Below the pieces are notes generated by a model, which saw only the letters and a list, made by a program, of their open reading frames with translations, did not search any database and had not been told where the DNA came from. From NCBI GenBank assembly GCA_026874595.1, contig CM049307.1, forward strand, positions 31,162,362-31,226,361: a stretch of 64,000 nt of DNA, given 5' to 3'. Both the position numbers and the translations under genes were made by a program. This stretch comes from Sipunculus nudus (lineage: Eukaryota > Annelida > Sipuncula > Golfingiida > Sipunculidae). Positions 5,590 through 64,000 of this stretch are shown piece by piece (the stretch's first letter is position 1; every line of letters begins with the position of its first letter).

Positions 5590-5591
5590 CT

Positions 5592-7666: not shown

Positions 7667-7667
7667 G

Positions 7668-18660: not shown

Positions 18661-19944
18661 TATCAGACATAATTGGAATAAGACCAAAGAATTCTTGGTC
18701 AAAATTTGACCAAGAGTTTTGAAATTTAAAATATTCTCATGATTACTCTTTTCTCATGTTTTAATGAGATTCTCATTCCAAGTGACTAACTGCCAATTTG
18801 ATCAGACAAAATAACACCATTCCAAAAGAGACCCTGAGATGGGAGATATTGTATGCTTATTTTTTCAAACATTTCTCATTCTAAGGTGTCTATGAGGAAC
18901 TGGATGGAAAGATGCCAAATTACATTGGCAGTGAGCCACATGAAATGGAAAAAAGGAAAGAAAGTAAGATAGAAAGAAAGAAGTAGGAAATATTCATGAT
19001 AGAAATGTCTAGATGCTGGAAGAGCCTCAGCATGATTTGAAGCCCTGCAAAATTTAAAATGTGCCTACACAATCAAGGCCATTTATTATTAGTTTATCAT
19101 TCCCTGGTCCTTTCCTTGTTTGAAACTGAATATTCATGAACACAACCCAACCAAAATCTTGATGTTCAGGATAGAGAACATGTTTGCTACACACATTATC
19201 TGTGGAATACTTTTAATTTGAATAAGTTTTGGAATCATTTTCTTGAACAGATATTAACTGTCTTATAAAAGGAATAGCTTCTGGGAAAAATTTAAGGGGG
19301 AATGCTGGAAGTCAAACAGATTATTAGTGTCTTGGTTTTGTCTGGACTGACAGTGACAACTTTGGTTTAGTGCTTGAAAGACCAGCAGAGAGTTAAAAAA
19401 TATGGTTACAGTCAACAACGCATCTCTGAGACCTGTAAACATGGGCATCTGAAGTAAATAGAAACATCTTAATAGTTCATGCTGTTATACTAGATATAAT
19501 ATTGTTTGTTAGGAAATTACCTCAAATATAATTAGAGGTTTACTTTTATCTAAAACCAGATATCAGTAGCCACAGGATAACCAAAATAGTTCAGTACAGC
19601 CCAAATTGGGTTACTGTAACATGAGTAAAATAATATGTTACATAAGAAAGGTATGCTGTTATTGAGTGAAGGAAAAATTAGCTTGATGAACAGACAAACA
19701 GATTTTGAAGGTTTCTTTGCTAAGAGCAGTCAGATATTTGTGGAGTCAGCCGGATGGATCTGATGAGCACTATTGTTAAGAATTATGGTAGGAAGATACA
19801 GTATGAAAATGTAAGTGGTTAGATATGATTCTCTGAGAAGTCATGTAAGGGTTGACAAAAATAAAAAGGAACTGTATATTGGATGATATATATCTAGTGT
19901 GACAATTTCTTTTGAATGTTTAGACATTGAATCTGTTTTACTGA
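18661..19944 (+). repeat. U0: degenerate first unit at the array edge
   Basis: The unit enters midway through B with many differences from all other units (GAGACCCTGAGATGGGAG, GAGCCACATGAAATGG), as expected for an array edge that escapes homogenisation. It then has a single A-type block (19311-19944) that is A-like at its start and A'-like at its end (AGGAACTGTATATTGGATGA), that is, an A/A' fusion. Confidence 0.85.
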
Positions 19945-22900
19945 CAGCTGTGTATTTTGTGGTCCCTGTTTGTGATGGGGTGGGTCTTAAAATCTGTTGA
20001 TTTGGTGATCAAATGGTTGATATGACATATGACTGTTGTGAGAAAAAATTGACCCCAATATTGGATCAAACTGAAAGAAAGATTTCTGGTTTTATGGAAA
20101 CAGATATGCTGGCCTTTCTTGGAAACAGTTATATTTTGTGGCATCTGTATATGTTGCCTTATGCCATCATACAGCCAACAAGGAGAGGACCTAGAATTAT
20201 TTCCTTTCATGTACAGTCAAGATTTAATTTGTGAGCTACAACTGACTTTTAAAGCCTGTCCTGACATATTTTTCCTTTGGTCATAATGTGATCAGAGTAT
20301 CAGGGTTAGACTTGTTTCCTGGTCATCAACAAAATATATCCAAATCAGCTGGACAATGTATTGAACAATCAGATTAAGAAGTGAGAAGTTTCACTATAAT
20401 AGGAACATTTTCAGTGAAAAGCCCCATTGCATTTCTAAGCAATTCATGCCAAAATTTGCTGTTTTCATATTGATATGGAACCAGACCGCTGACTCCACAA
20501 GCAATACCTTCTTGTTTTACAAATTTAATTGTTATTTTCAGATTGACACGTCATGTCAAAGTAACAGAAAGCAGCAGCCATAAATTTGACTGTCAGTTTA
20601 AAAAAAAAAGAATGACCTTGAACTATTCCTACACTCATGTAGTCCTGCATAGTTTTATCAAAATTGGACCAAAGAATTGTTAACCAAAATCTGACAGAGT
20701 TTTGAAATTTCACATATTCTCATGATAACTCTTTTTCATGTTTTTATGAGATTTTCATTCCAAGTGTCTAACTGCCTATTTGGTCTGACAAAATAACACC
20801 ATTCCAAAAAGAGACGCTGAGGATGTGGGATGTTGCATGCTTTTTTATTTTTTTTTTACATTTCTGATTCCAAGGTGTCTATGAGGAACTGGTTGTAATG
20901 TTACCTGATTTTATGGGCAGTGAGCCAGATGAAAGGGAAATTGTAAAAAAATCCAATAAGATTGTTCTCTAGAAAGTGAGAAAGAAAGACAGAAACAAAG
21001 AAAGATAGAGAGAAAGAAGTAGGAAATATTCAGGATAGAAATGTCGAGATGTTGGGAGAGCCACAGTTTGATTTGAAGCACTGCAAAATTTAAAATGTGC
21101 CTACACAATCAAGGCCATTTATTATTAGTTTATCATTCCCTGGTCCTTTCCTTGTTTGAAACTGAATATTCACGAACACAACCCAACCAAAATCTTGATG
21201 TTCATGATAGAGAACATGTTTGCTACACACATTATCTGTGGAATACTTTTAATTTGAATAAGTTTTGGAATCATTTTCTTGAACAGTTATTAACTGTCAA
21301 ATAAAAGGAATGGCTTCTGGGAAAAATTTAAGGGGGAATGCTGGAAGTCAAACAGATTATAAGTGTCTTGGTTTTGTCTGGACTGACAGCTACAACTTTG
21401 GTTTAGGGCTTGAAAGACCAGCAGAGAGATAAAAGTATGGTTACAGTCAACAACGCATCTCTGAGACCTGTAAACATGGGCATCTGAAGTAAATAGAAAC
21501 ATCTAAATAGTTCATGCTGTTATACTAGACATAATATTGTTTTGTTAGGAAATTACCTCAAATATAATTAGAGGTTTACTTTTACCTAAAACCAGATATC
21601 AGTAGCCACAGGGTAACCAAAATAGTTCAGTTCAGCCCGAATTGGGTTACTGTAACATGAGTAAAATAATATGTTACATAAGAAAGGTATGCTGTTATGG
21701 AGTGAAGGAAAAATTAGCTTGATGAACAGACAAACAGATTCTGAAGGTTTCTTTGCCAAGAGCAGTCAGATATTTGTGGAGTCAGCCAGATGGATCTGAT
21801 GAGCACTATTGTTAAGGATTATGGTAGGCAGATACAGTATGAAAATGTAAGTGGTTAAATATGATTCTCTGAGAAGTCATGTGAGGGTTGACAAGAATAA
21901 TAGGAACAGTATATTGGCTGATAAATCTAGTTTGACAATTTTTTAAAACTTTTTAGACATTGATTTTTTATTTATGCTAATAACTTGAAAATTTGCAAAA
22001 TTCAGATCTAATTTTGGGTTAACAATTGAATCTTGATTAAATAAAGTTATATTCCTGAAAAAAGGTCTCTAGGTTCAGCAATTCTCATGTGAGTAAATAT
22101 ATTTCCTGATTTTTTAAAAAATTGCATTATGTTTTGGCCCATAACTTCAAAATAATACCCAATACTGACCTAATTTTTGGTATGTTCATAAAAAATGGTA
22201 TAAAAGAATGTGAATACTAAATACAATCAAAAACAGATCAGTGGTTTTGAGGCAGCCTTGAAGTGTAACAATGGCTTTTTTTATGGAAAACAGTTTTTTT
22301 CCTTAATATCCCGAAGGAACGAAGTCCTAATGACCCAATTTTCGGTATGGTAGGAGATTTTGGGGACATCTAAAATTATGTCAACACCCTGGGGAGCATA
22401 GAGATGTGCACTGAATGACCTACAGTCATCAAAGTGGACTGCTTGACAATGTAAGGGAATATAACAAGAGCCTCCAAAAAAATTCAATAACTAGCCTAAT
22501 TTTGCAGCTTTTATTTTCAAATTTCAGATTTTAACAGATTAAATCATTATGTATACATGGTGTGAAAATTAAATCCACAGTACTTACAGGAAAAAAACGT
22601 GCCATGGCCAAAGTTGGGAAAATTTAAGGTACCAATTTTATATTTTTGCCAATATTTAAAAAAATTTAACAAATTTTGATCTAATCTTTTGTATACAATT
22701 AAATTTTGATTAATTAAAGTTGTATTACTGGAAAAAAGTCCCTACTTTTAACACTTTTGGTCTTAAGTGACCAAATATCTTCCTGATTTTTTTACAAAGT
22801 CCATTATGTTTGGGCCCATAACTTTTTTAATTTATATAATACTGACTTAATATCTGGCATGTACATAGGAACTATATAGAGGAATATTTATGGTAAATAT

Positions 22901-23304
22901 GAAGAAAACCAGATGAGTGGTTTTGATATTAGGCAGTCCTGAAGTGTGAAAATAGATTTCTAATAAAAAATTGAGGTTTTTCCTTAATATCTCAAAGGAA
23001 CGAAGTCCTATTGACCCAATTTTTGGCATGGTAGGAGATTATGGGGACATCTAACTATATGCTGAAATTCAGATTCGTAGGTCCAACGGTGTCGAAACGT
23101 GCCAGTCTTACGGACGGACATCCAGACGGACAGACGGACGGACGGACGGACAGACAGACGGACGGACGACGGACAATGGACCATGACTATAGCTCAGATG
23201 ACTTATTGTCAGCTGAGCTAAAAATGAACCTGTAATTATATTTGAGGTAATTTCCTAACAAAACCTTATGACATCCAGTATAACCACTGAATCTGTTTTA
23301 CTGA
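19945..23304 (+). repeat. U1: variant unit (3.36 kb) with an inverted segment
   Basis: B contains about 40 bases absent from every other unit (after GGAGAGGACCT, near 20191-20231), and a 2-base loss in the ATTGACACC segment. A (about 21310-21957) is normal. A' is missing and replaced by an inverted piece, 21963-23288, that carries the element's 5' part plus its A' flank. Confidence 0.9.
21963..23219 (-). mobile_element. Inverted, truncated copy of the array's element (5' ~1.26 kb)
   Basis: The reverse complement matches the first ~1.26 kb of the 31688-34844 element, including the (GTCC)n head (here GGAC repeats at about 23113-23170) and AGCTCAGCTGAC next to 23219. The adjoining 23220-23288 is the reverse complement of the A' sequence that flanks the element in U4, U6 and U9. 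The segment therefore inverted after insertion. The left junction shares ATTGA between the A block and the element. Confidence 0.9.
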
Positions 23305-26300
23305 CAGCTGTGTATTTTGTGGTCCCTGTTTGTGATGGGGTGGGTCTTAAAATCTGTTGATTTGGTGATCAAATGGTTGATATGACACATATGAGTGTTG
23401 TGAGAAAAAATTGACCCCAATATTGGATCAAACTGAAAGAAAGATTTCTGGTTTTATGGAAACAGATATGCTGGCCTTTCTTGGAAACAGTTATATTTTG
23501 TGGCATCTGTATATGTTGCCTTATGCCATCATACACCCAAAATGGAGAGGACCTGAGCTACAACTGACTTTTAAAGCCTGTCCTGACATATATTTCTTTT
23601 GGTCATAATGTGATCAGAGTATCAGAGTTAGACCTGTTTCCTGGTCATGAAACAAAATATATCCAAATCAGCTGGACAATGTATTGAACAATCAGATTAA
23701 GAAGTGAGAAGTTTCACTATAATAGGAACATTTTCAGTGAAAAGCCCCATTGGATTTCTAAGCGATTCATGCCAAAATTTGCTGTTTTCATATTGATATG
23801 GAACCAAACCAGTGACTCCACAAGCAATACCTTCTTGTTTTACAAATTTATTTGTTATTTTCAGATTGACACCTATCATGTCAAAGTAACAGAAAGCAGC
23901 AGCCATAAATTTGACTGTCAGTTTAAAAAAAAGAAGAATGACCTTGAACTATTCCTACACTCATGTAGTCCTGCATAGTTTTATCAAAATTGGACAAAAG
24001 AATTGTTAACCAAAATCTGACAAAGAGTTTTGAAATTTCACATATTCTCATGATTACTCTTTTTCATGTTTTTATGAGATTTTCATTCCAAGTGTCTAAC
24101 TGCCTATTTGGTCTGACAAAATAACACCATTCCAAAAAGAGAAACTAAGTTTGTGAGATGTTGCATGCTTTTTAAATTTTTTTTTACATTTCTGATTCCA
24201 AGGTGTCTATGAGGAACTGGTTGTAATGATGCCAGGTTTTATGGGCAGTGAGCCAGATGAAATGAAAATTGTAAAAAAATCCCATAAGATTGTTCCCTAG
24301 AAAAGAAGAAAGAAAGACAGAAACAAAGAAAGATTGAAAGAAAGAAGTAGGAAATATTCAGGATAGAAATGTCGAGATGTTGGGAGAGCCACAGTTTGAT
24401 TTGAAGCACTGCAAAATTTAAAATGTGCCTACACAATCAAGGCCATTTATTATTAGTTTATCATTCCCTGGTGCTTTTCTTGTTTGAAACTGAATATTCA
24501 CGAACACAACCCAACCAAAATCTTGATGTTCAGGATAGAGAACATGTTTGCTACACACATTATCTGTGGAATACTTTTAATTTGAATAAGTTTTGGAATC
24601 ATTTTCTTGAACAGATATTAACTGTCCAATAAAAGGAATGGCTTCTGGGGAAAATTTAAGGGGGAATGCTGGAAGTCAAACAGATTATTAGTGTCTTGGT
24701 TTTGTCTGGACTGACAGTGACAACTTTGGTTTAGGGCTTGAAAGACCAGCAGAGAGATAAAAATATGGTTACAGTCAACAACACATCTCTGAGACCTGTA
24801 AACATGGGCATCTGAAGTAAATAGAAACATCTAAATAGTTCATGCTGTTATACTAGACATTATATTGTTTTGTTAGGAAATTATCTCAAATATAATTAGA
24901 GGTTTACTTTACCTAAAACCAGATATCAGTAGCCACAGGATAACCAAAATAGTTCAGTTCAGCCCGAATTGGGTTACTGTAACACTTTTAATTTGAATAA
25001 GTTTTGGAATCATTTTCTTGAACAGATATTAACTGTCCAATAAAAGGAATGGCTTCTGGGGAAAATTTAAGGGGGAATGCTGGAAGTCAAACAGATTATT
25101 AGTGTCTTGGTTTTGTCTGGACTGACAGCGACAACTTTGGTTTAGGGCTTGAAAGACCAGCAGAGAGATAAAAATATGGTTACAGTCAACAACGCATCTC
25201 TGAGACCTGTAAACATGGGAATCTGAAGTAAATAGAAACATCTAAATAGTTCATGCTGTTATACTAGACATAATATTGTTTTGTTAGGAAATTACCTCAA
25301 ATATAATTAGAGGTTTACTTTTACCTAAAACCAGATATCAGTAGCCACAGGGTAACCAAAATAGTTCAGTTCAGTCTGGATTGGGATACTGTAATATGAG
25401 TAAAATAATATGTTGCATAAGAAAGGTATGCTGTTATGGAGTGAAGGAAAAATTAGCTTGATGAACAGACAAACAGATACTGAAGGTTTCTTTGCCAAGA
25501 GCAGTCAGATATTTGTGGAGTCAGCCAGATGGATCTGATGAGCACTATCGTTAAGGATTATGGTAGCCAGATACAGTATGAAAATGTAAGTGGTTAAATA
25601 TGATTCTCTGAGAAGTCATGTGAGGGTTGACAAGAATAATACGAACAGTATATTGGCTGATAAATCTAGTTTGACAATTTTTAAAAACTTTTTAGACATT
25701 GAATCTGTTTTACTGACACAATGCTGGGAATGGTTGAAGTCAAACAGATAATAAGTGTGTCTTGGTATTGTCTGGAGTGAAAGTGACAACTTTGGTTTAG
25801 CACCTGGAAAGACCAGCAGAGAGATAGAAATATGGTTACAGTCAACAACGCATCTCTGAGACTTTTACCTGTAAACATGGGCATCTGGTGCAACTAGAAA
25901 CATTAAATATGCTCATGTGGTTATACTGGATGTCATAAGGTTTTGTGAGGAAATTACCTCAAATATAATTACAGGCTCATTTTTACCTAAAACCAGGTAT
26001 CAGTAGCCACAGGGTAACCAAAATAGTTCAGTTCAACCTGCATTGGGTCACAGTAAAATTGGTAAAATAATACATGTTACATAAGAAAGTTATGCTTTTA
26101 TGGAGTGAACAGACAAACATATTCTGAAGGTTTGTTTGCCAAGAGCAATCAGATATGTGTGGTGTAAGCCGGATAGCTCTGATGAGCAATATTGTGTAGG
26201 ATTATGGTAGGCACATACAGCATGAAAATGTAAGTGGTTAGATATTATTCTCTGAGAAGTCATGTAAGGGTTGACAACAATAAAAAGGAACTGTATATTG

Positions 26301-26363
26301 GATGATATATATCTAGTGTGACAATTTCTTTTGAATGTTTAGACATTGAATCTGTTTTACTGA
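23305..26363 (+). repeat. U2: D-type unit (3.06 kb)
   Basis: B-A-A' with the 411-bp duplication at 24573-24983 / 24984-25394. The A' begins at about 25722. Confidence 0.95.
24573..25394 (+). repeat. 411-bp tandem duplication defining D-type units
   Basis: ACTTTTAATTTGAATAAGTT at 24573 recurs at 24984, directly after GGGTTACTGTAAC. The duplicated stretch spans the B/A boundary and the first part of A. The identical junction occurs in U3 (27632/28041), U5 (36490/36901), U7 (44681/45092) and U8 (47738/48149), so it arose once and spread with the units. The two halves share a two-base AC at the junction. Confidence 0.95.
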
Positions 26364-29300
26364 CAGCTGTGTATTTTGTGGTCCCTGTTTGTGATGGGGT
26401 GGGTCTTAAAATCTGTTGATTTGGTGATCAAATGGTTGATATGACACATATGAGTGTTGTGAGAAAAAATTGACCCCAATATTGGATCAAACTGAAAGAA
26501 AGATTTCTGGTTTTATGGAAACAGATATGCTGGCCTTTCTTGGAAACAGTTATATTTTGTGGCATCTGTATATGTTGCCTTATGCCATCATACACCCAAA
26601 ATGGAGAGGACCTGAGCTACAACTGACTTTTAAAGCCTGTCCTGACATATATTTCTTTTGGTCATAATGTGATCAGAGTATCAGAGTTAGACCTGTTTCC
26701 TGGTCATGAAACAAAATATATCCAAATCAGCTGGACAATGTATTGAACAATCAGATTAAGAAGTGAGAAGTTTCACTATAATAGGAACATTTTCAGTGAA
26801 AAGCCCCATTGGATTTCTAAGCGATTCATGCCAAAATTTGCCGTTTTCATATTGATATGGAACCAAACCGGTGACTCCACAAGCAATACCTTCTTGTTTT
26901 ACAAATTTATTTGTTATTTTCAGATTGACACCTATCATGTCAAAGTAACAGAAAGCAGCAGCCATAAATTTGACTGTCAGTTTAAAAAAAAGAAGAATGA
27001 CCTTGAACTATTCCTACACTCATGTAGTCCTGCATAGTTTTATCAAAATTGGACAAAAGAATTGTTAACCAAAATCTGACAAAGAGTTTTGAAATTTCAC
27101 ATATTCTCATGATTACTCTTTTTCATGTTTTTATGAGATTTTCATTCCAAGTGTCTAACTGCCTATTTGGTCTGACAAAATAACACCATTCCAAAAAGAG
27201 AAACTAAGTTTGTGAGATGTTGCATGCTTTTTAAATTTTTTTTTACATTTCTGATTCCAAGGTGTCTATGAGGAACTGGTTGTAATGATGCCAGGTTTTA
27301 TGGGCAGTGAGCCAGATGAAATGAAAATTGTAAAAAAATCCCATAAGATTGTTCCCTAGAAAAGAAGAAAGAAAGACAGAAACAAAGAAAGATTGAAAGA
27401 AAGAAGTAGGAAATATTCAGGATAGAAATGTCGAGATGTTGGGAGAGCCACAGTTTGATTTGAAGCACTGCAAAATTTAAAATGTGCCTACACAATCAAG
27501 GCCATTTATTATTAGTTTATCATTCCCTGGTCCTTTCCTTGTTTGAAACTAAATATTCACGAACACAACCCAACCAAAATCTTGATGTTCAGGATAGAGA
27601 ACATGTTTGCTACACACATTATCTGTGGAATACTTTTAATTTGAATAAGTTTTGGAATCATTTTCTTGAACAGATATTAACTGTCCAATAAAAGGAATGG
27701 CTTCTGGGGAAAATTTAGGGGGAATGCTGGAAGTCAAACAGATTATTAGTGTCTTGGTTTTGTCTGGACTGACAGTGACAACTTTGGTTAAGGCTTGAAA
27801 GACCAGCAGAGAGATAAAAATATGGTTACAGTCAACAACACATCTCTGAGACCTGTAAACATGGGCATCTGAAGTAAATAGAAACATCTAAATAGTTCAT
27901 GCTGTTATACTAGACATTATATTGTTTTGTTAGGAAATTATCTCAAATATAATTAGAGGTTTACTTTACCTAAAACCAGATATCAGTAGCCACAGGATAA
28001 CCAAAATAGTTCAGTTCAGCCCGAATTGGGTTACTGTAACACTTTTAATTTGAATAAGTTTTGGAATCATTTTCTTGAACAGATATTAACTGTCCAATAA
28101 AAGGAATGGCTTCTGGGGAAAATTTAAGGGGGAATGCTGGAAGTCAAACAGATTATTAGTGTCTTGGTTTTGTCTGGACTGACAGCGACAACTTTGGTTT
28201 AGGGCTTGAAAGACCAGCAGAGAGATAAAAATATGGTTACAGTCAACAACGCATCTCTGAGACCTGTAAACATGGGAATCTGAAGTAAATAGAAACATCT
28301 AAATAGTTCATGCTGTTATACTAGACATAATATTGTTTTGTTAGGAAATTACCTCAAATATAATTAGAGGTTTACTTTTACCTAAAACCAGATATCAGTA
28401 GCCACAGGGTAACCAAAATAGTTCAGTTCAGTCTGGATTGGGATACTGTAATATGAGTAAAATAATATGTTGCATAAGAAAGGTATGCTGTTATGGAGTG
28501 AAGGAAAAATTAGCTTGATGAACAGACAAACAGATACTGAAGGTTTCTTTGCCAAGAGCAGTCAGATATTTGTGGAGTCAGCCAGATGGATCTGATGAGC
28601 ACTGTTGTTATGAATTATGGTAGCCAGATACAGTATGAAAATGTAAGTGGTTAAATATGATTCTCTGAGAAGTCATGTGAGGGTTGACAAGAATAATAGG
28701 AACAGTATATTGGCTGATAAATCTAGTTTGACAATTTTTTAAAACTTTTTAGACATTGAATCTGTTTTACTGACACAATGCTGGGAATGGTTGAAGTCAA
28801 ACAGATAATAAGAGTGTCTTGGTATTGTCTGGAGTGAAAGTGACAACTTTGGTTTAGAACTTGGACAGACCAGCAGAGAGATAGAAATATGGTTACAGTC
28901 AACAACGCATCTCTGAGACTTTTACCTGTAAACATGGGCATCTGAAGCAACTAGAAACATTAAATATGTTCATGTGGTTATACTGGATGTCATAAGGTTT
29001 TGTGAGGAAATTACCTCAAATATAATTACAGGTTCATTTTTACCTAAAACCAGGTATCAGTAGCCACAGGGTAACCAAAATAGGTCAGTTCAACCTGAAT
29101 TGGGTTACAGTAAAATTGGTAAAATAATACATGTTACATAAGAGAGTTATGCTTTTATGGAGTGAACAGACAAACATATTCTGAAGGTTTGTTTGCCAAG
29201 AGCAATCAGATATGTGTGGTGTAAGCCGGATAGCTCTGATGAGCAATATTGTGTAGGATTATGGTAGGCACATACAGCATGAAAATGTAAGTGGTAAGAT

Positions 29301-29420
29301 ATTATTCTCTGAGAAGTCATGTAAAGGTTGACAAAAATAAAAAGGAACTGTATATTGGATGATATATATCTAGTGTGACAATTTCTTTTGAATGTTTAGA
29401 CATTGAATCTATTTTACTGA
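26364..29420 (+). repeat. U3: D-type unit (3.06 kb)
   Basis: Nearly identical to U2. Small losses in the first duplicated half shorten its period to 409 (AAATTTAGGGGGAATG, TTTGGTTAAGGC). Confidence 0.95.
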
Positions 29421-31687
29421 CAGCTGTGTATTTTGTGGTCCCTGTTTGTGATGGGGTGGGTCTTAAAATCTGTTGATTTGGTGATCAAATGGTTGATATG
29501 ACACATATGAGTGTTGTGAGAAAAAATTGACCCCAATATTGGATCAAACTGAAAGAAAGATTTCTGGTTTTATGGAAACAGATATGCTGGCCTTTCTTGG
29601 AAACAGTTATATTTTGTGGCATCTGTATATGTTGCCTTATGCCATCATACACCCAAAAAGGAGAGGACCTGAGCTACAACTGACTTTTAAAGCCTGTCCT
29701 GACATATATTTCTTTTGGTCATAATGTGATCAGAGTATCAGAGTTAGACCTGTTTCCTGGTCATGAAACAAAATATATCCAAATCAGCTGGACAATATAT
29801 TGAACAATCAGATTAAGAAGTGAGAAGTTTCACTATAATAGGAACATTTTCAGTGAAAAGCCCCATTGGATTTCTAAGCGATTCATGCCAAAATTTGCTG
29901 TTTTCATATTGATATGGAACCAAACCGGTGACTCCACAAGCAATACCTTCTTGTTTTACAAATTTAATTGTTATTTTCAGATTGACACCTATCATGTTAA
30001 AGTAACAGAAAGCAGCAGCCATAAATTTGACTGTCAGTTTAAAAAAAAGAAGAATGACCTTGAACTATTCCTACACTCATGTAGTCCTGCATAGTTTTAT
30101 CAAAATTGGACAAAAGAATTGTTAACCAAAATCTGACAAAGAGTTTTGAAATTTCACATATTCTCATGATTACTCTTTTTCATGTTTTTATGAGATTTTC
30201 ATTCCAAGTGTCTAACTGCCTATTTGGTCTGACAAAATAACACCATTCCAAAAAGAGACACTAAGTTTGTGAGATGTTGCATGCTTTTTAAATTTTTTTT
30301 ACATTTCTGATTCCAAGGTGTCTATGAGGAACTGGTTGTAATGATGCCAGGTTTTATGGGCAGTGAGCCAGATGAAATGAAAATTGTAAAAAAATCCCAT
30401 AAGATTGTTCTCTAGAAAAGAAGAAAGTAAGACAGAAACAAAGAAAGATTGAAAGAAAGAAGTAGGAAATATTCAGGATAGAAATGTCGAGATGTTGGGA
30501 GAGTTACAGTTTGATTTGAAGCACTGCAAAATTTAAAATGTGCCTACACAATCAAGGCCATTTATTATTAGTTTATCATTCCCTGGTCCTTTCCTTGTTT
30601 GAAACTGAATATTCACGAACACAACCCAACCAAAATCTTGATGTTCAGGATAAAGAACATGTTTGCTACACACATTATCTGTGGAATACTTTTAATTTGA
30701 ATAAGTTTTGGAATCATTTTCTTGAACAGATATTAACTGTCAAATAAAAGGAATGGCTTCTGGGAAAAATTTAAGGGGGAATGCTGGAAGTCAAACAGAT
30801 TATTAGTGTCTTGGTTTTGTGTGGACTGACAGCGACAACTGTGGTTTAGGGCTTGAAAGACCAGCAGAGAGAAAAAAGTATGGTTACAGTCAACAACGCA
30901 TCTCTGAGACCTGTAAACATGGGCATCTGAAGTAAATAGAAACATCTAAATAGTTCATGCTGTTATACTAGACATAATATTGTTTTGTTAGGAAATTACC
31001 TCAAATATAATTAGAGGTTTACTTTTACCTAAAACCAGATATCAGTAGCCACAGGGTAACCAAAATAGTTCAGTTCAGCCCGAATTGGGTTACTGTAACA
31101 TGAGTAAAATAATATTTACATAAGAAAGGTATGCTGTTATGGAGTGAAGGAGAAATTAGCTTGATGAACAGACAAACAGATTCTGAAGGTTTCTTTGCCA
31201 AGAGCAGTCAGATATTTGTGGAGTCAGCCAGATGGATCTGATGAGCACTATTGTTAAGGATTATGGTAGGCAGATACAGTATGAAAATGTAAGTGGTTAA
31301 ATATGATTCTCTGAGAAGTCATGTGAGGGTTGACAAGAATAATAGGAACAGTATATTGGCTGATAAATCTAGTTTGACAATTTTTTAAAACTTTTTAGAC
31401 ATTGAATCTGTTTTACTGACACAATGCTGGGAATGGTTGAAGTCAAACAGATAATAAGTGTGTCTTGGTATTGTCTGGAGTGAAAGTGACAACTTTGGTT
31501 TAGTACTTGGAAAGACCAGCAGAGAGATAGAAATATGGTTACAGTCAACAACGCATCTCTGAGACTTTTACCTGTAAACATGGGCATCTGAAGCAACTAG
31601 AACCATTAAATATGCTCATGTGGTTATATTGGATGTCATAAGGTTTTGTGAGGTAATTACCTCAAATATAATTACAGGTTCATTTTT

Positions 31688-34600: not shown

Positions 34601-34844
34601 TATATCACAATTTTCAACCCCTCCTAAATAAATAAAAAATAAACCACTTTATTTGACTCTATTAATCCATCAGTCAGGTAATTTCATTTATCATTTACTC
34701 ACATATTACATTACATTCCTTTATAATAGCCCAACATGTACATGATATTCATAAGCTTTATCGACTCGATATAGTATAACAGTGGAGAAACATTTATAGT
34801 CAAATCACGATCAGCTGAGCGCTGTGATCCATGGGTCCCTTGTT
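31688..34844 (+). mobile_element. Full-length Helentron/pearl-like element, array copy 1 (3.16 kb)
   Basis: The 5' end is AGCTCAGCTGACTATAATTC after TTTTT; the (GTCC)n head is at about 31735-31803. The 3' end is CAGCTGAGCGCTGTGATCCA then TGGGTCCCTTGTT, before ACCTAAAACC. Empty units read CATTTTTACCTAAAACC, so boundaries are known to within the shared T's and there is no target duplication longer than TT/TTA. CTCAGCTGA near the 5' end recurs inverted as TCAGCTGAG near the 3' end. A 682-bp internal repeat is present. Small frames, such as an 81-codon minus frame at 33823-34068, are conserved only because copies are nearly identical. It is non-autonomous. Confidence 0.85.
31870..33060 (+). repeat. 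~682-bp diverged tandem duplication inside the element
   Basis: AATCTCCTACCATgCC at 31870 recurs as AATCTCCTACCATACC at 32552. Both are followed by AATTGGGTCA, TAGGACTTCGTTCCTT, CTGCCTAATATCAAAA, GGGCCAAAACATAATG, CCTTAAATTTTG and CATAAGGATTTAATCT in the same order. The same pair occurs in the U6 and U9 copies. Confidence 0.9.
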
Positions 34845-35218
34845 ACCTAAAACCAGGTATCAGTAGCCACAGGGTAACCAAAATAGTTCAGTTCAACCTG
34901 CTTTGGGTTACAGTAAAATTGGTAAAATAATACATGTTACATAAGAACGGTATGCTTTTATGGAGTGAACAGACAAACATATTCTGAAGGTTTGTTTGCC
35001 AAGAGCAATCAGATGTGTGGTGTAAGCCGGATAGCTCTGATGAGCAATATTGTGTAGGATTATGGTAGGCACATTCAGCATGAAAATGTAAGTGGTTAGA
35101 TATGATTCTCTGAGAAGTCATGTAAGGGTTGACAAAATAAAAAGGATCTGTATATTGGATGATATATCTAGTGTGACAATTTCTTTTGAATGTTTAGACA
35201 TTGAATATGTTTTACTGA

Positions 35219-49400: not shown

Positions 49401-49525
49401 AAGATATTATTCTCTGAGAAGTCATGTAAGGGTTGACAAAAATAAAAAGGAACTGTATATTGGATGATATATATCTAGTGTGACAATTTCTTTTGAATAT
49501 TTAGACATTGAATCTATTTTACTGA
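46471..49525 (+). repeat. U8: D-type unit (3.06 kb)
   Basis: D organisation (47738/48149). It has eight A's at the TTGTA(n)TCCC site and a TTTTAAAAAAAG variant at about 47088. Confidence 0.94.
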
Positions 49526-52500: not shown

Positions 52501-55330
52501 ATTTGAAAATAAAAGCTGCAAAATTAGGCTAGTTATTGAATTTTTTTGGAGGCTCTTGTTGTATTCCCTTACATTGTCAAGCAGTCCACTTTGATGACTG
52601 TAGGTCATTCAGTGCACATCTCTATGCTCCCCAGGCTGTTGACATAATTTTAGATATCCCCAAAATCTCCTACCATACCGAAAATTGGGTCATTAGGACT
52701 TCGTTCCTTCGGGATATTAAGGAAAAAAACTGTTTTCTATAAAAAAGCCATTGTTACACTTCAAGGCTGCCTAATATCAAAACCACTGATCTGTTTTTGA
52801 TTGTATTTAGTATTCACATTCTTTTATACATTTTCTATGAACATACCAAAAATTAGGTCAGTATTGGGTATTATTTTGAAGTTATGGGCCAAAACATAAT
52901 GCAATTTTTTAAAAAATCAGGAAATATATTTACTCACATGAGAATTGCTGAACCTAGAGACCTTTTTTCAGGAATATAACTTTATTTAATCAAGATTCAA
53001 TTGTTAACCCAAAATTAGATCTGAATTTTGCAAATTTTCAAGTTATTAGCATAAATAAAAAATCAATACCTTAAATTTTGTCCAACTTTGGCACTGTTGA
53101 TTTAATTTTCCCAGCATATATGCATAAGGATTTAATCTTTTAAAATCTGAACTTTCAAAAGAAATTGATTGGAATGAATAGCTTTTATTCATGTTTTCAT
53201 ACACCATGTCAAGTGTTGTTTACATCTAGCCCACCTAGTAGTACAGCCTTCACTTGCATTATGTAACCCACCCCAGGCAGCTTACCTTGGCCCAGCTTGG
53301 TCACTACTAGCAGGCTTCCCCTCGCCCTGCACTCATCCCCCCCCCCCAGCTGGTGCATAAACTAGATGAATGTTATAATTTTTCTGTATTTTATTTTATT
53401 CTTGGACATGCTACATTTTAGATTTTGTATTGAACCACCAGGGTTACAATGATTAAAGTGTACATTTAATTGTGTCCACAAAGTGGTGTATTGCTGTGAA
53501 AGTGTGGATGTTCATGAGACAAGTAATTCCTTACTTCAGAAGAGTAAAAACTTCACCAGGTGTGAAATTGACTATTAATTCCAGTAATTAATTAAAACTG
53601 GGATAGTAATTAGCACAATGATATTGTTTGTCCCTCATCTAACCAACAGTGTGTATACTTTATTTGAAAAGATGTTTTATTTTATCAAATTCACTTTTAT
53701 TTTATTTTGTTGAATAAAATTAAGCATGTCCTGAAAACTCCAATATGCAACACTTTTTAATAGTGATTCAAGGAATACTCTTGTAGATGCCATGTTGTGG
53801 CATTATTTTCTTTTAAAATCAGTTTAAACATTTATGATTTAAAAATAATAAAATATATGTGTATGTATAATATGACCCAATGTTTTTTACTCTGTATATA
53901 TAATGATTGCAACTTTTGCAACAATTCTAATATTTTAACTTATATTTTCAGGTTTTTTAATTAAAAATTTATAAACCTCTAAATAAAAAAATGATTCAGA
54001 TAAAAACTTCTTAATGGAAAAAGTGGATCTGCTTAAAAAAATAGGATTATATATAAACTTAAATGCATTATTCTCTTGAAAGTGAAATAAAGGTATTAGT
54101 CCATTCTGTCCACTTACCTGTCCATCTGTAAATTTCCGTATGCAACACAGTATCTCAAAACTTTTACTGCTTTTCTTCATGACAGTCTTGTCTGAGTATT
54201 AGTTTGCAATCATATATTTAGAACTTTACTATAACCAAGTAGGAGGGCCCCTTTCCTCTTAGCTTTTCATATTCTTATATAAATGAAAAACATTACAATA
54301 GAATATTTCTACATCCACCTTCGTGCTGCCCTCACTTTTCCCTTCTCCGAACCCCATCCCAAAGTCAGCCTCAGTAAGCAAGAACAAGATGAATCAGATA
54401 TATTCATACTTTAATATTTTGTATAACTATTCGTCCATAGGTACCTATGTACATGCCAGAAATTATGTCAATATTGTGTAATATGTAGGCATAGTGGGCA
54501 TCACAATAATGTACCTTGTCAGGACTAAAGAGATATTGTGTCATACAGTCACATATTGATAAATCACTTCATCAGCATAGTTAATCATAACATCATATCT
54601 GTCAAATTGAACGCTTGCAGACTACCATACACTTTAGATCCTTGAACAAATAGCCTTATCATCATTCTACTACTGCTTATTACTGCTGTCATTGTATTCA
54701 TATTTGCTCAAATATATCACAATTTTCAACCCCTCCTAAATAAATAAAAAATAAACCACTTTATTTGACTCTATTAATCCATCAGTCAGGTAATTTCATT
54801 TATCATTTACTCACATATTACATTACATTCCTTTATAATAGCCCAACATGTACATGATATTCATAAGCTTTATCGACTCGATATAGTATAACAGTGGAGA
54901 AACATTTATAGTCAAATCACGATCAGCTGAGCGCTGTGACCCATGGGTCCCTTGTTACCTAAAACCAGGTATCAGTAGCCACAGGGTAACCAAAATAGTT
55001 CAGTTTAACCTGCATTGGGTTACAGTAAAATTGGTAAAATAATACATGTTACATAAGAACGGTATGCTTTTATGGAGTGAACAGACAAACATATTCTGAA
55101 GGTTTGTTTGCCAAGAGCAATCAGATGTGTGGTGTAAGCCGGATAGCTCTGATGAGCAATATTGTGTAGGATTATGGTAGGCACATTCAGCATGAAAATG
55201 TAAGTGGTTAGATATGATTCTCTGAGAAGTCATGTAAAGGTTGACAAAATAAAAAGGATCTGTATATTGGATGATATATCTAGTGTGACAATTTCTTTTG
55301 AATGTTTAGACATTGAATCTGTTTTACTGA
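49526..55330 (+). repeat. U9: E-type unit (5.81 kb)
   Basis: As U4 and U6, with the longest (GTCC)n head of the three (about 51840-51890). Confidence 0.95.
51793..54956 (+). mobile_element. Full-length element, array copy 3 (3.16 kb)
   Basis: Starts AGCTTAGCTGAC (one change from AGCTCAGCTGAC) after TTTTT and ends GACCCATGGGTCCCTTGTT before ACCTAAAACC. The extra length compared with copy 2 is mainly in the (GTCC)n head and the C run (11). Confidence 0.88.
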
Positions 55331-57979
55331 CAGCTGTGTATTTTGTGGTCCCTGTTTGTGATGGGGTGGGTCTTAAAATCTGTTGATTTGGTGATCAAAT
55401 GGTTGATATGACACATATGAGTGTTGTGAGAAAAAATTGACCCCAATATTGGATCAAACTGAAAGAAAGATTTCTGGTTTTATGGAAACAGATATGCTGG
55501 CCTTTCTTGGAAACAGTTATATTTTGTGGCATCTGTATATGTTGCCTTATGCCATCATACACCCAAAAAGGAGAGGACCTGAGCTACAACTGACTTTTAA
55601 AGCCTGTCCTGACATATATTTCTTTTGGTCATAATGTGATCAGAGTATCAGAGTTAGACTTGTTTCCTGGTCATGAAACAAAATATATCCAAATCAGCTG
55701 GACAATGTATTGAACAATCAGATTAAGAAGTGAGAAGTTTCACTATAATAGGAACATTTTCAGTGAAAAGCCCCATTGGATTTCTAAGTGATTCATGCCA
55801 AAATTTGCTGTTTTCATATTGATATGGAACCAAACCGGTGACTCCACAAGCAATACCTTCTTGTTTTACAAATTTAATTGTTATTTTCAGATTGACACCT
55901 ATCATGTCAAAGTAACAGAAAGCAGCAGCCATAAATTTGACTGTCAGTTTAAAAAAAAGAAGAATGACCTTGAACTATTCCTACACTCATGTAGTCCTGC
56001 ATAGTTTTATCAAAATTGGACAAAAGAATTGTTAACCAAAATCTGACAAAGAGTTTTGAAATTTCACATATTCTCATGATTACTCTTTTTCATGTTTTTA
56101 TGAGATTTTCATTCCAAGTGTCTAACTGCCTATTTAGTCTGACAAAATAACACCATTCCAAAAAGAGACACTAAGTTTGTGAGATGTTGCATGCTTTTAA
56201 AATTTTTTTTTACATTTCTGATTCCAAGGTGTCTATGAGGAACTGGTTGTAATGATGCCAGGTTTTATGGGCAGTGAGCCAGATGAAATGAAAATTGTAA
56301 AAAAATCCCATAAGATTGTTCTCTAGAAAAGAAGAAAGAAAGACAGAAACAAAGAAAGATTGAAAGAAAGAAGTAGGAAATATTCAGGATAGAAATGTCG
56401 AGATGTTGGGAGAGCCACAGTTTGATTTGAAGCACTGCAAAATTTAAAATGTGCCTACACAATCAAGGCCATTTATTATTAGTTTATCATTCCCTGGTCC
56501 TTTCCTTGTTTGAAACTGAATATTCACAAACACAACCCAACCAAAATCTTGATGTTCAGGATAGAGAACATGTTTGCTACACACATTATCTGTGGAATAC
56601 TTTTAATTTGAATAAGTTTTGGAATCATTTTCTTGAACAGATATTAACTGTCCAATAAAAGGAATGGCTTCTGGGAAAAATTTAAGGGGGAATGCTGGAA
56701 GTCAAACAGATTATTAGTGTCTTGGTTTTGTGTGGACTGACAGTGACAACTTTGGTTTAGGGCTTGAAAGACCAGCAGAGAGATAAAAATATGGTTACAG
56801 TCAACAACGCATCTCTGAGACCTGTAAACATGGGCATCTGAAGTAAATAGAAAGATCTAAATAGTTCATGCTGTTATACTAGACATAATATTGTTTTGTT
56901 AGGAAATTATCTCAAATATAATTAGAGGTTTACTTTCACCTAAAACCAGATATCAGTAGCCACAGGGAAACCAAAATAGTTCAGTTCATCCCGAATTGGG
57001 ATACTGGAATATGAGTAAAATAATATGTTGCATAAGAAAGGTATGCTGTTATGGAGTGAAGGAAAAATTAGCTTGATGAACAGACAAACAGATTCTGAAG
57101 GTTTCTTTGCATAGAGCAGTCAGATATTTGTGGAGTCAGCCAGATGGATCTGATGAGCACTATTGTTAAGAATTATGGTAGCCAGATACAGTATGAAAAT
57201 GTAAGTGGTTAAATATGATTCTCTGAGAAGTCATGTGAGGGTTGACAAGAATAATAGGAACAGTATATTGGCTGATAAATCTAGTTTTGACAATTTTTTA
57301 AAACTTTTTAGACATTGAATCTTTTTTACTGACACAATGCTGGGAATGGTTGAAGTTAAACAGATAATAAGTGCGTCTTGGTATTGTCTGGAGTGAAAGT
57401 GACAACTTTGGTTTAGTACTTGGAAAGACCAGCAGAGGGATAGAAATATGGTTACAGTCAACAACGCATCTCTGAGACTTTTACATGTAAACATGGGCAT
57501 CTGAAGCAACTAGAAACATTAAATATGCTCATGTGGTTATACTGGATGTCATAAGGTTTTGTGAGGAAATTACCTCAAATATAATTACAGGTTCATTTTT
57601 ACCTAAAACCAGGTATCAGTAGCCACAGGGTAACCAAAATAGGTCAGTTCAACCTGCATTGGGTTACAGTAAAATTGGTAAAAAAATACATGTTACATAA
57701 GAAAGTTATGCTTTTATGGAGTGAACAGACAAACATATTCTGAAGGTTTGTTTGCCAAGAGCAATCAGATATGTGTGGTGTAAGCCGGATAGCTCTGATG
57801 AGCAATATTGTGTAGGATTATGGTAGGCACATACAGCATGAAAATGTAAGTGGTTAGATATTATTCTCTGAGAAGTCATGTAAGGGTTGACAAAAATAAA
57901 AAGGAACTGTATATTGGATGATATAGATCTAGTGTGACAATTTCTTTTGAATGTTTAGACATTGAATCTGTTTTACTGA
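55331..57979 (+). repeat. U10: S-type (basic) unit, 2.65 kb
   Basis: B-A-A' with neither the 411-bp duplication nor the element. It is the first of three basic units after the last E unit. Confidence 0.95.
55891..56004 (+). other. Exon-like segment in block B (representative copy)
   Basis: TTGTTATTTTCAG is a good acceptor sequence, directly followed by 37 open codons, IDTYHVKVTESSSHKFDCQF then KKKKNDLELFLHSCSPA, and TAG. The frame is intact in most units, but broken by a 2-base loss in U1, by TTTTAA in U8 and U13, and altered C to W in U11. Near-identity of units explains most of the conservation. It may be a relic of a terminal exon carried into the repeat. Confidence 0.22.
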
Positions 57980-60626
57980 CAGCTGTGTATTTTGTGGTCC
58001 CTGTTTGTGATGGGGTGGGTCTTAAAATCTGTTGATTTGGTGATCAAATGGTTGATATGACACATATGAGTGTTGTGAGAAAAAATTGACCCCAATATTG
58101 GATCAAGCTGAAAGAAAGATTTCTGGTTTTATGGAAACAGATATGCTGGCCTTTCTTGGAAACAGTTATATTTTGTGGCATCTGTATATGTTGCCTTATG
58201 CCATCATACACCCAACAAGGAGAGGACCTGAGCTACAACTGACTTTTAAAGCCTGTCCTGACATATTTTTCTTTTGGTCATAATGTGATCAGAGTATCAG
58301 AGTTAGACCTGTTTCCTGGTCATGAAACAAAATATATCCAAATCAGCTGGACAATGTATTGAACAATCAGATTAAGAAGTGAGAAGTTTCACTATAATAG
58401 GAACATTTTCAGTGAAAAGCCCCATTGGATTTCTACGTGGTTCATGCCAAAATTTGCTATTTTCATATTGATATGTAACCAAACCGGTGACTCCACAAGC
58501 AATACCTTCTTGTTTTACAAATTTAATTGTTATTTTCAGATTGACACCTATCATGTCAAAGTAACAGAAAGCAGCAGCCATAAATTTGACTGGCAGTTTA
58601 AAAAAAAGAAGAATGACCTTGAACTATTCCTACACTCATGTAGTCCTGCATAGTTTTATCAAAATTGGACAAAAGAATTGTTAACCAAAATCTGACAAAG
58701 AGTTTTGAAATTTCACATATTCTCATGATTACTCTTTTTCATGTTTTTATGAGATTTTCATTCCAAGTGTCTATTTGCCTATTTGGTCTGACAAAATAAC
58801 ACCATTCCAAAAAGAGACACTAAGTTTGTGAGATGTTGCATGCTTTTTAAATTTTTTTTTACATTTCTGATTCCAAGGTGTCTATGAGGAACTGGTTGTA
58901 ATGATGCCAGGTTTTATGGGCAGTGAGCCAGATGAAATGAAAATTGTAAAAAAATCCCATAAGATTGTTCCCTAGAAAAGAAAAAAGAAAGACAGAAACA
59001 AAGAAAGATAGAAAGAAAGAAGTAGGAAATATTCAGGATAGAAATGTCGAGATGTTGGGAGAGCCACAGTTTGATTTGAAGCACTGCAAAATTTAAAATG
59101 TGTCTACACAATCAAGGCCATTTATTATTAGTTTATCATTCCCTGCTCCTTTCCTTGTTTGAAACTGAATATTCACGAACACAACCCAACCAAAATCTTG
59201 ATGTTCAGGATAGAGAACATGTTTGCTACACACATTATCTGTGGAATACTTTTAATTTGAATAAGTTTTGGAATCATTTTCTTGAACAGATATTAACTGT
59301 CCAATAAAAGGAATAGCTTCTGGGAAAAATTTAAGGGGGAATGCTGGAAGTCAAACAGATTATTAGTGTCTTGGTTTTGTCTGGACTGACAGTGTCAACT
59401 TTGGTTTAGGGCTTGAAAGACCAGCAGAGAGATAAAAATATGGTTACAGTCAACAACGCATCTCTGAGACCTGTAAACATGGGCATCTGAAGTAAAATAG
59501 AAACATCTAAATAGTTCATGCTGTTATACTAGACATAATATTGTTTTGTTAGGAAATTACCTCAAATATAATTAGAGGTTTACTTTTACCTAAAACCAGA
59601 TATCAGTAGCCACAGGGTAACCAAAATAGTTCAGTTCAGCCCGAATTGGGATACTGTAATATGAGTAAAATAATATGTTGCATAAGAAAGGTATGCTGTT
59701 ATGGAGTGAAGGAAAAATTAGCTTGATGAACAGACAAACAGATTCTGAAGGTTTCTTTGCGTAGAGCAGTCAGATATTTGTGGAGTCAGCCAGATGGATC
59801 TGATGAGCACTATTGTTAAGAATTATGGTAGCCAGATACAGTATGAAAATGTAAGTGGTTAAATATGATTCTCTGAGAAGTCATGTGAGGGTTGACAAGA
59901 ATAATAGGAACAGTATATTGGCTGATAAATCTAGTTTGACAAATTTTTAAAACTTTTTAGACATTGAATCTGTTTAACTGACACAATGCTGGGAATGGTT
60001 GAAGTCAAACAGATAATAAGTGTGTCTTGGTATTGTCTGGAGTGAAAGTGACAACTTTGGTTTAGTACTTGGAAAGACCAGCAGAGGGATAGAAATATGG
60101 TTACAGTCAACAACGCATCTCTGAGACTTTTACCTGTAAACATGGGCATCTGAAGCAACTAGAAACATTAAATATGCTCATGTGGTTATACTGGATATCA
60201 TAAGGTTTTGTGAGGAAATTACCTCAAATATAATTACAGGTTCATTTTTACCTAAAACCAGGTATCAGTAGCCTCAGGGTAACCAAAATTGTTCAGTTCA
60301 ACCTGCATTGGGTCACAGTAAAATTGGTAAAATAATACATGTTACATAAGAAAGTTATGCTTTTATGGAGTGAACAGACAAACATATTCTGAAGGTTTGT
60401 TTGCCAAGAGCAATCAGATATGTGTGGTGTAAGCCGGATAGCTCTGATGAGCAATATTGTGTAGGATTATGGTAGGTACATACAGCATGAAAATGTTAGT
60501 GGTTAGATATGATTCTCTGAGAAGTCATGTAAGTTTTGACAAAAATAAAAAGGAACTGTAGATTGGATGATATATCTAGTGTGACAATTTCTTTTGAATG
60601 TTTAGACATTGAATCTGTTTTACTGA
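57980..60626 (+). repeat. U11: S-type unit, 2.65 kb
   Basis: Basic organisation. It has its own substitutions (for example TCTACGTGGTTCATG at about 58433 and TGACTGGCAG at about 58590). Confidence 0.95.
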
Positions 60627-61976
60627 CAGCTGTGTATTTTGTGGTCCCTGTTTGTGATGGGGTGGGTCTTAAAATCTGTTGATTTGGTGATCAAAAGGTT
60701 GATATGACACATATGAGTGTTGTGAGAAAAAATTGACCCCAATATTGGATCAAAGAAAGATTTCTGGTTTTATGGAAACAGATATGCTGGCCTTCCTTGG
60801 AAACAGATATATTTTGTGGCATCTGTATATGTTGCCTTATGCCATCATACACCCAAAAAGGAGAGGACCTGAGCTACAACTGACTTTTAAAGCCTGTCCT
60901 GACATATTTTTCTTTTGGTCATAATGTGATCAGAGTATCAGAGTTAGACTTGTTTCCTGGTCATGAAACAAAATATATCCAAATCAGCTGGACAATGTAT
61001 TGAACAATCAGATTAAGAAGTGAGAAGTTTCACTATAATAGGAACATTTTCAGTGAAAAGCCCCATTGGATTTCTAAGCGATTCATGCCAAAATTTGCTT
61101 TTTTCATATTGATATGTAACCAAACCGGTGACTCCAAAAGCAATACCTTCTTGTTTTACAAATTTAATTGTTATTTTCAGATTGACACCTATCATGTCAA
61201 AGTAACAGAAAGCAGCAGCCATAAATTTGACTGTCAGTTTAAAAAAAAGAAGAATGACCTTGAACTATTCCTACACTCATGTAGTCCTGCATAGTTTTAT
61301 CAAAATTGGACAAAAGAATTGTTAACCAAAATCTGACAAAGAGTTTTGAAATTTCACATATTCTCATGATTACTCTTTTTCATGTTTTTATGAGATTTTC
61401 ATTCCAAGTGTCTAACTGCCTATTTGGTCTGACAAAATAACACCATTCCAAAAAGAGACACTAAGTTTGTGAGATGTTGCATGCTTTTTAAATTTTTTTT
61501 TACATTTCTGATTCCAAGGTGTCTATGAGGAACTGGTTGTAATGATGCCAGGTTTTATGGGCAGTGAGCCAGATGAAATGAAAATTGTAAAAAAATCCCA
61601 TAAGATTGTTCTCTAGAAAAGAAGAAAGAAAGACAGAAACAAAGAAAGATAGAAAGAAAGAAGTAGGAAATATTCAGGATAGAAATGTCGAGATGTTGGG
61701 AGAGCCACAGTTTGATTTGAAGCACTGCAAAATTTAAAATGTGCCTACACAATCAAGGCCATTTATTATTAGTTTATCATTCCCTGGTCCTTTCCTTGTT
61801 TGAAACTGAATATTCACGAACACAACCCAACCAAAATCTTGATGTTCAGGATAGAGAACATGTTTGCTACACACATTATCTGTGGAATACTTTTAATTTG
61901 AATAAGTTTTGGAATCATTTTCTTGAACAGATATTAACTGTCCAATAAAAGGAATAGCTTCTGGGAAAAATTTAAG

Positions 61977-62622
61977 GGGGAATGCTGGAAGTCAAACAGA
62001 TTATTAGTGTCTTGGTTTTGTCTGGACTGACAGCGACAACTTTGGTTTAGGGCTTGGAAGACCAGCAGAGAGATAAAAATATGGTTACAGTCAACAACGC
62101 ATCTCTGAGACCTGTAAACATGGGCATCTGAAGTAAATAGAAAGATCTAAATAGTTCATGCTGTTATACTAGACATAATATTGTTTTGTTAGGAAATTAC
62201 CTCAAATATAATTAGAGGTTTACTTTTACCTAAAACCAGATATCAGTAGCCACAGGGTAACCAAAATAGTTCAGTTCAGCCCGAATTGGGATACTGTAAT
62301 ATGAGTAAAATAATATGTTGCATAAGAAAGGTATGCTGTTATGGAGTGAAGGAAAAATTAGCTTGATGAACAGACAAACAGATTCTGAAGGTTTCTTTGC
62401 CAAGAGCAGTCAGATATTTGTGGAGTCAGCCAGATGGATCTGATGAGCACTATTGTTAAGAATTATGGTAGCCAGATACAGTATGAAAATGTAAGTGGTT
62501 AAATATGATTCTCTGAGAAGTCATGTGAGGGTTGACAAGAATAATAGGAACAGTATATTGGCTGATAAATCTAGTTTGACAAATTTTTAAAACTTTTTAG
62601 ACATTGAATCTGTTTTACTGAC
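61977..62622 (+). repeat. Sub-block A (representative)
   Basis: About 645 bp from GGGGGAATGCTGGAAGTCAA to GACATTGAATCTGTTTTACT. It is a tandem paralogue of A' and lacks the element insertion in every unit. Confidence 0.9.
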
Positions 62623-63266
62623 ACAATGCTGGGAATGGTTGAAGTCAAACAGATAATAAGTGTGTCTTGGTATTGTCTGGAGTGAAAGTGACAACTTTGG
62701 TTTAGTACTTGGAAAGACCAGCAGAGGGATAGAAATATGGTTACAGTCAACAACGCATCTCTGAGACTTTTACCTGTAAACATGGGCATCTGAAGCAACT
62801 AGAAACATTAAATATGCTCATGTGGTTATACTGGATGTCATAAGGTTTTGTGAGGAAATTACCTCAAATATAATTACAGGTTCATTTTTACCTAAAACCA
62901 GGTATCAGTAGCCACAGGGTAACCAAAATAGTTCAGTTCAACCTGCATTGGGTCACAGTAAAATTGGTAAAATAATACATGTTACATAAGAAAGTTATGC
63001 TTTTATGGAGTGAACAGACAAACATATTCTGAAGGTTTGTTTGCCAAGAGCAATCAGATATGTGTGGTGTAAGCCGGATAACTCTGATAAGCAATATCGT
63101 GTAGGATTATGGTAGGCACATACAGCATGAAAATGTTAGTGGTTAGATATGATTCTCTGAGAAGTCATGTAAGGGTTGACAAAAATAAAAAGGAACTGTA
63201 TATTGGATGATATATCTAGTGTGACAATTTCTTTTGAATGTTTAGACATTGAATCTGTTTTACTGA
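62623..63266 (+). repeat. Sub-block A' (representative)
   Basis: About 645 bp from ACAATGCTGGGAATGGTTGA to the same GACATTGAATCTGTTTTACT end. It aligns along its whole length with A but has many fixed differences (AATACATGTTACATAAG against AATATGTTGCATAAG; AACAGACAAACATATTC against AACAGACAAACAGATTC). The A/A' duplication is therefore older than the spread of the units. Confidence 0.9.
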
Positions 63267-64000
63267 CAGCTGTGTATTTTGTGGTCCCTGTTTGTGATGG
63301 GGTGGGTCTTAAAATCTGTTGATTTGGTGATCAAATGGTTGATATGACACATATGAGTGTTGTGAGAAAAAATTGACCCCAATATTGGATCAAACTGAAA
63401 GAAAGATTTCTGGTTTTAAGGAAACAGATATGCTGGCCTTTCTTGGAAACAGATATATTTTGTGGCATCTGTATATGTTGCCTTATGCTATCATACACCC
63501 AACAAGGAGAGGACCTGAGCTACAACTGACTTTTAAAGCCTGTCCTGACATATTTTTCTTTTGGTCATAATGTGATCAGAGTATCAGAGTTAGACCTGTT
63601 TCCTGGTCATGAAACAAAATATATCCAAATCAGCTGGACAATGTATTGAACAATCAGATTAAGAAGTGAGAAGTTTCACTATAATAGGAACATTTTCAGT
63701 GAAAAGCCCCATTAGATTTCTAAGCGATTCATGCCAAAATTTGCTGTTTTCATATTGATATGGAACCAAACCGGTGACTCCACAAGCAATACCTTCTTGT
63801 TTTACAAATTTAATTGTTATTTTCAGATTGACTCCTATCATGTCAAAGTAACAGAAAGCAGCAGCCATAAATTTGACTGTCAGTTTTAAAAAAAGAAGAA
63901 TGACCTTGAACTATTCCTACACTCATGTAGTCCTGCATAGTTTTATCAAAATTGGACAAAAGAATTGTTAACCAAAATCTGACAAAGAGTTTTGAAATTT
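63267..64000 (+). repeat. U13: partial unit cut by the window end
   Basis: The first ~730 bp of block B; the array continues beyond the window. It has the same TTTTAAAAAAAG change as U8 (about 63883). Confidence 0.95.

Follow-up and report, generated by a model that had tools for sequence, protein, structure and literature searches.

What kind of element is a tandem array whose units are about 2.65 kb long, come in several types and seem to hold no gene, and how did it come to be so uniform? This question is raised by a stretch of 64,000 nucleotides of Sipunculus nudus DNA, termed here the window, which occupies positions 31,162,362-31,226,361 of contig CM049307.1 (98.5 Mb; C2 below) in an assembly of 1.43 Gb and 153 contigs (GCA_026874595.1). 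We consider it about 85% probable that the array is a single-locus, non-coding macrosatellite of ~128 units, which has grown and been homogenised in place by out-of-register recombination.

Extent and anatomy of the array

Self-BLAST and a unit map place the array, head to tail and entirely on the + strand, between window position 18682 and C2:31,536,031. Measured from a partial unit on its left through to where the last unit ends, the array spans 355.0 kb; the window holds only its left 45 kb, and ~310 kb more follow beyond the window end. Of the bounds 18661-64000 given in a preliminary description of the sequence, the left one is thus shifted to 18682, while 64000 is merely where the window stops. 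Both edges of the array run into other DNA.

The units are 97-99% identical over kilobases. A 24-mer taken from the unit was searched in the whole genome with up to two mismatches and gave 128 forward and 0 reverse places, and 0 for a backward control. The word is present in 93/93 units of the fetched sequence (the first 100 of its places were listed), and the 35 further places are assigned to C2:31,316,000-31,408,999, a stretch of 93 kb in which units were counted by the word. Since 93 and 35 add up to 128, the word is, within the whole genome, confined to the array. Another 24-mer, which lies in the sub-repeats described below, gave 256 forward and 0 reverse places with up to three mismatches, and the first 100 places listed are all inside the array. 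The kilobase-long identity together with the 24-mer counts excludes a chance repeat. The array is real and far larger than the window shows: where at least 13 same-strand units had been claimed, there are 13 unit starts in the window and 128 units in the whole array. Among the 127 spacings between units, 102 fall within 2630-2660 bp, and the median of this class is 2646 bp.

The reference unit, of type S, is 2647 bp long; it begins with a part of ~1.38 kb and continues with two sub-repeats of ~650 bp, which are 82-83% alike. Type D carries a 411-bp partial duplication of unit positions 1283-1700, and type D' (2400 bp) keeps this duplication and has one internal sub-repeat fewer. Units of 2003 bp correspond to S minus one sub-repeat, and in units of 1967 bp a larger deletion is accompanied by a 121-bp partial repeat. 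The first complete unit start is followed by a unit of 3360 bp that ends in an inverted piece (inv), and type E contains a 3.15-kb insertion whose site is seen unoccupied in the S unit. The order reported earlier for the window, inv-D-D-E-D'-E-D-D-E-S-S-S, was reproduced exactly and is followed by one S unit truncated at the window end (Table 1).

Trapped insertions and probable exchange between units

The insertion of the E units is, judged by its features, a HINE-type (non-autonomous Helentron) element. The typed variants of the preliminary description stand, except that E does not represent a separate satellite type; it is a unit with a transposon insertion that has been copied along. The described reference for HINE hallmarks is Cg_HINE of the Pacific oyster (PMC7492417), and the features given in the part of that source consulted recur in the E insertion. 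Subterminal inverted repeats measure 10 bp in three of the four copies and 9 bp in E3, lengths attained in 1 to 12 of 1000 shuffles, and a complementary inverted repeat is present. A GTCC tetranucleotide microsatellite occupies the left part of the insertions (31733, 39931 and 51838), and a 12-bp palindrome at the 3' end is perfect in three of four copies, E1 having a substitution within it. A HINE with such a microsatellite would be in keeping with a bivalve source but does not prove one. The target is T-rich, and no clear target-site duplication is seen: the junction letters fit an insertion into TT without duplication or a 3-bp duplication of TTA. A 15-bp target-site duplication, suggested by an overlap of BLAST matches, was dropped on reading these letters. 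The E insertion differs from Cg_HINE, as far as the consulted part describes it, in its length of 3.15 kb and in its centre, which is a diverged pair of ~0.5-kb repeats, 75% alike, instead of a satellite-like array.

The three complete E copies in the window are 99.4-99.7% alike, and the HINE part of the inverted piece is 96.9-97.5% identical to them. The element is also dispersed: 40 of 7188 first-look candidates were scored, and 23 of them are near-full-length copies, 94-98% identical, that lie on 13 contigs and outside the array. Several pieces in both orientations within ~6 kb form an apparent nest at C9:52,496,412-52,502,679.

A second insert, 683 bp long, is found at a single shared site in 10 units of 3.33 kb in the right part of the array. 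It is read as a solo long terminal repeat (LTR) because it ends in TG...CA, as LTR retrotransposons do, and because its copies outside the array include seven same-strand pairs spaced by 3.46-3.66 kb (of 870 first-look candidates, 40 were scored). It departs from a typical LTR insertion in that no clean target-site duplication was found at the junctions read.

Likeness between units was measured in the 93 fetched units, of which U46, cut by a fetched end, was left out of the alignment; identity counts omit U0, and the interior mean also omits U92 at the right edge. Mean pairwise identity among the 90 interior units is 97.9%. Identity drops with the distance between units (Spearman -0.53; 0/500 permutations as extreme). 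Near-identical pairs (>=0.997) are often collinear, 13/42 and 11/37 in the two fetched segments, as compared with shuffled means of 1.9 and 1.5, and the observed counts were reached in 0/500 shuffles. The largest copied block is 23.2 kb long and 99.8% identical at a shift of 11.95 kb. Units of mixed haplotype occur as well. The LTR-bearing units U48 and U67 are only 0.985 and 0.975 identical, at the lowest, to the LTR-bearing unit U61 over much of their length, but at positions 2401-2647, beside the insert, their identity to it is 1.0; this patchwork points to exchange within the unit. Toward the edges, identity to the interior consensus falls to 89.2% and 95.6% on the left and to 96.1% and 86.2% on the right. 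A homogenised interior with diverged edges and a multi-unit order, expected of unequal exchange or conversion, had been proposed from the left end and is borne out at both ends.

These patterns would arise if unequal exchange copied blocks several units long and shorter exchange or conversion tracts carried sequence from unit to unit. A transposon landing in one unit would be copied along with it and so give rise to a typed variant; the left-side insert is a HINE-type element, and the right-side insert an LTR element of which only the solo LTR is now left. Edge units would exchange less often and diverge. Unequal exchange combined with short-tract exchange predicts likeness of near units, multi-unit blocks copied with hardly any change and diverged edges, all of which are seen. 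The process is probably meiotic or sister-chromatid exchange together with gene conversion, acting on a sequence that presumably has no selected product.

Several points weigh against this explanation. Adjacent units barely exceed the average identity (0.985 vs 0.983 and 0.988 vs 0.981 in the two segments), although a small excess is what is expected if a copied block spans several units. U0, which had been called degenerate, is 95.6% identical to the consensus when gaps are counted and 97.9% on ungapped columns, so part of its divergence consists of insertions and deletions; its edge signal is milder than it seems, and clearer ones come from the partial unit on the left and the fragment at the right end. 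The variable sites, examined like all site-by-site comparisons below in 42 representative units, show an uneven distribution over the unit (variance 11.6 vs 6.9 when shuffled, p 0.0005), which simple neutrality does not predict. Moreover, 35/128 units were counted by the 24-mer with their sequence unread, and it is from one assembly that we infer copy number, exchange and lack of function.

Function, assembly and centromere as alternatives

The absence of a gene from the unit, claimed earlier, holds as far as tested. Rfam gave no match over the window at gathering score and none on one unit at E up to 1, a tRNA search found none, and a six-frame Pfam scan of one unit gave nothing above cut-off. 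A match to Peripla_BP_3 in the unit (16.1 bits vs a cut-off of 26.5) was set aside. Only one stop-to-stop frame of at least 110 amino acids, of 113, occurs in the array.

A non-coding unit could nevertheless be under selection, as an element that is expressed or has a regulatory role in the manner of human DXZ4 or D4Z4: an array transcribed in the germline and methylated, or a chromatin boundary. In the unit, the ratio of observed to expected (O/E) CpG is 0.09, the kind of value that prolonged germline methylation would produce; 18 stretches of 1500 bp sampled for comparison have a median of 0.68. Yet 4/18 of these stretches are themselves below 0.33, and 23/29 one-kb windows of the left flank are low as well (0.02-0.43), as compared with 2/7 on the right; the depletion is thus not peculiar to the array on the left and ends near its right edge. 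The depleted stretches of the flanks (0.02-0.43; C2:31,152,362-31,181,000 and 31,536,000-31,543,000) are interrupted by short ones of ~0.8-1.1, which are possibly younger insertions.

Throughout the S region, each 1-kb window has more G than C on the + strand. A-to-G variants exceed T-to-C variants (57/898 vs 33/829 sites, p 0.03), in one of six strand comparisons, the other five of which are not significant. A CTCF-like core with one mismatch occurs in 67/92 units, and a CTCF scan of the window gave 43 matches where 16.9 were expected; the shuffles do not preserve repetition, and the excess is therefore ascribed to one or two weak sites multiplied by it. The uneven variable sites would also suit selection on the unit, but the longest invariant run, of 40 bp, is not significant (p 0.25). 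A run of 39 bp with p 0.0015 came from a first alignment, in which insertion-bearing units spoiled positions 2300-2647, and is superseded. We regard an element of this kind, with its unit under selection, as improbable. Of similarly low probability is a germline-transcribed, methylated array with a DXZ4-like chromatin role that arose independently in an invertebrate, with CpG depletion, strand skew, uneven variation and restriction to one locus as its traces.

It is also unlikely that the number or order of units is partly a product of assembly. Assemblers can miscopy or collapse sequence that recurs with little or no change, as certain units and blocks do here over 2.6-23 kb; the unit haplotypes, on the other hand, are mostly 1-3% apart, the insertions and deletions fit together with the mixed units in a consistent series, other DNA is reached on both sides, and the stretches checked contain no N. 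The idea of a centromeric satellite of C2 is the most doubtful of all: the length, homogeneity and block-wise higher-order order of the array, and its place at 31.2-31.5 Mb of the 98.5-Mb contig, would suit it, but centromeric satellites are usually common to several chromosomes, the unit 24-mer is restricted to this array, and a kelch-like gene lies 28 kb away.

Surroundings of the array and comparison with known systems

The features of the window are collected in Table 1.

Table 1. Array units, insertions and related elements in window numbering (position 1 = C2:31,162,362).
Feature	Position	Strand	Remarks
Independent diverged HINE-type copy outside the array	-1237 to 1931	+	Starts 1237 bp left of the window
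Detached relic, unit positions 814-1127, outside the array	5284..5592	+	81%
Degenerate partial unit at the left edge (unit positions 709-2002)	18682..19924	+	89.2% to interior consensus, 1299 columns
U0, continuing into the inverted piece	19925..21950	+	Unit start 1; 95.6% gapped, 97.9% ungapped columns
inv, inverted E-unit fragment	21951..23284	-	HINE end and 72 bp of unit, same insertion junction
D unit, 3059 bp	23285..26343	+	Unit start 2; unit map
D unit, 3057 bp	26344..29400	+	Unit start 3; unit map
E unit, 5798 bp	29401..35198	+	Unit start 4; HINE insertion
HINE-type insertion E1	31692..34842	+	
D' unit, 2400 bp	35199..37598	+	Unit start 5; D less one sub-repeat
E unit, 5795 bp	37599..43393	+	Unit start 6; unit map
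HINE-type insertion E2	39890..43037	+	99.7% to E1
D unit, 3057 bp	43394..46450	+	Unit start 7; unit map
D unit, 3055 bp	46451..49505	+	Unit start 8; unit map
E unit, 5805 bp	49506..55310	+	Unit start 9; unit map
HINE-type insertion E3	51797..54954	+	99.4% to E1
S unit, 2649 bp	55311..57959	+	Unit start 10; unit map
S unit, 2647 bp, reference	57960..60606	+	Unit start 11; sub-repeats 59337-59983 and 59991-60606
S unit, 2640 bp	60607..63246	+	Unit start 12; unit map
S unit truncated at the window end	63247..64000	+	Unit start 13; true end 65891

The detached relic lies ~13 kb left of the array, and the other 39 of the 40 scored matches to the unit (of 2505 first-look candidates) are inside it. 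The nearest gene seen is the kelch-like one, which lies left of the window on the + strand (C2:31,144,807-31,152,595) with six kelch matches and has KLHL17, KLHL3, KLHL20 and KLHL2 among its solved relatives. A location of the array within an intron of this gene is not supported: ~28 kb before the array begins, an in-frame stop follows the last kelch match. Pfam scans of the remaining flanking pieces (apart from window positions 7299-9000 and, save for one unit, 18683 onward) gave nothing above cut-off, and two left-flank matches of 14.6 and 13.2 bits (vs ~27) were set aside.

Two further repeats were observed in the left flank. A 31-bp minisatellite of ~38 copies occupies window positions 7681-8844, its + strand very rich in G and A with a GC skew of up to 0.51. 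Related 11-bp words (TATATGTCCCA-like and their complement) form imperfect repeats at 10584-10921 and 14563-14648, 4 kb apart. Elsewhere in the assembly, nine COX1-family matches (418.8-420.4 bits; frames of 577-578 amino acids) were found, none of them on a large, chromosome-size contig; they lie on eight others, namely C60, C61, C62, C66, C72, C74, C75 and C89, the last in two places. The matches read are bacterial by neighbours or by sequence; that on C60 adjoins other oxidase-like frames and shares at most 58% identity with the named bacterial genomes listed, and C123 carries another bacterial-looking oxidase. This suggests that a divergent bacterium, perhaps in several symbiont strains, is represented in the assembly. 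A search for the haemocyanin beta-sandwich domain found nothing here, and nothing in the control genomes.

Assemblies frequently collapse or truncate arrays of long units. In the present case a single contig contains the two edges, the 128 units, the block copies and two trapped insertions, and the relative weight of block copying and short-tract exchange can therefore be read, with the transposon-marked units serving as natural tracers of exchange. The array is a clean example of known principles, not a new one, in which the traces of exchange are unusually legible.

The array belongs to a known kind of repeat, the macrosatellites, in which it is classed because of its unit size, copy number and single locus; its tandem units are of kilobase scale, stand at one place and evolve in concert. 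The term varies in use, being applied to any unit above 100 bp in the part of PMC13130569 consulted. A literature search, of partial coverage and hence not evidence that the array is undescribed, returned no title describing it. The preliminary view that the unit is too long for a typical satellite is correct with respect to classical satellites, whereas for macrosatellites, as presented in the consulted part of PMC8122249, the length is normal. The same part describes macrosatellites as head-to-tail arrays at one or a few loci, and gives a unit of 3.3 kb for human D4Z4 and of 3 kb, in 12-100 copies, for DXZ4. The human arrays are notable for copy-number variation and a chromatin role, and the present one is known from the sequence of a single assembly. 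DXZ4 is described there as CpG-rich, in contrast to the CpG-poor unit reported here. In its architecture, the array resembles both D4Z4 and DXZ4 as that source portrays them: the units are kilobase-sized, run head to tail and are gathered at one locus.

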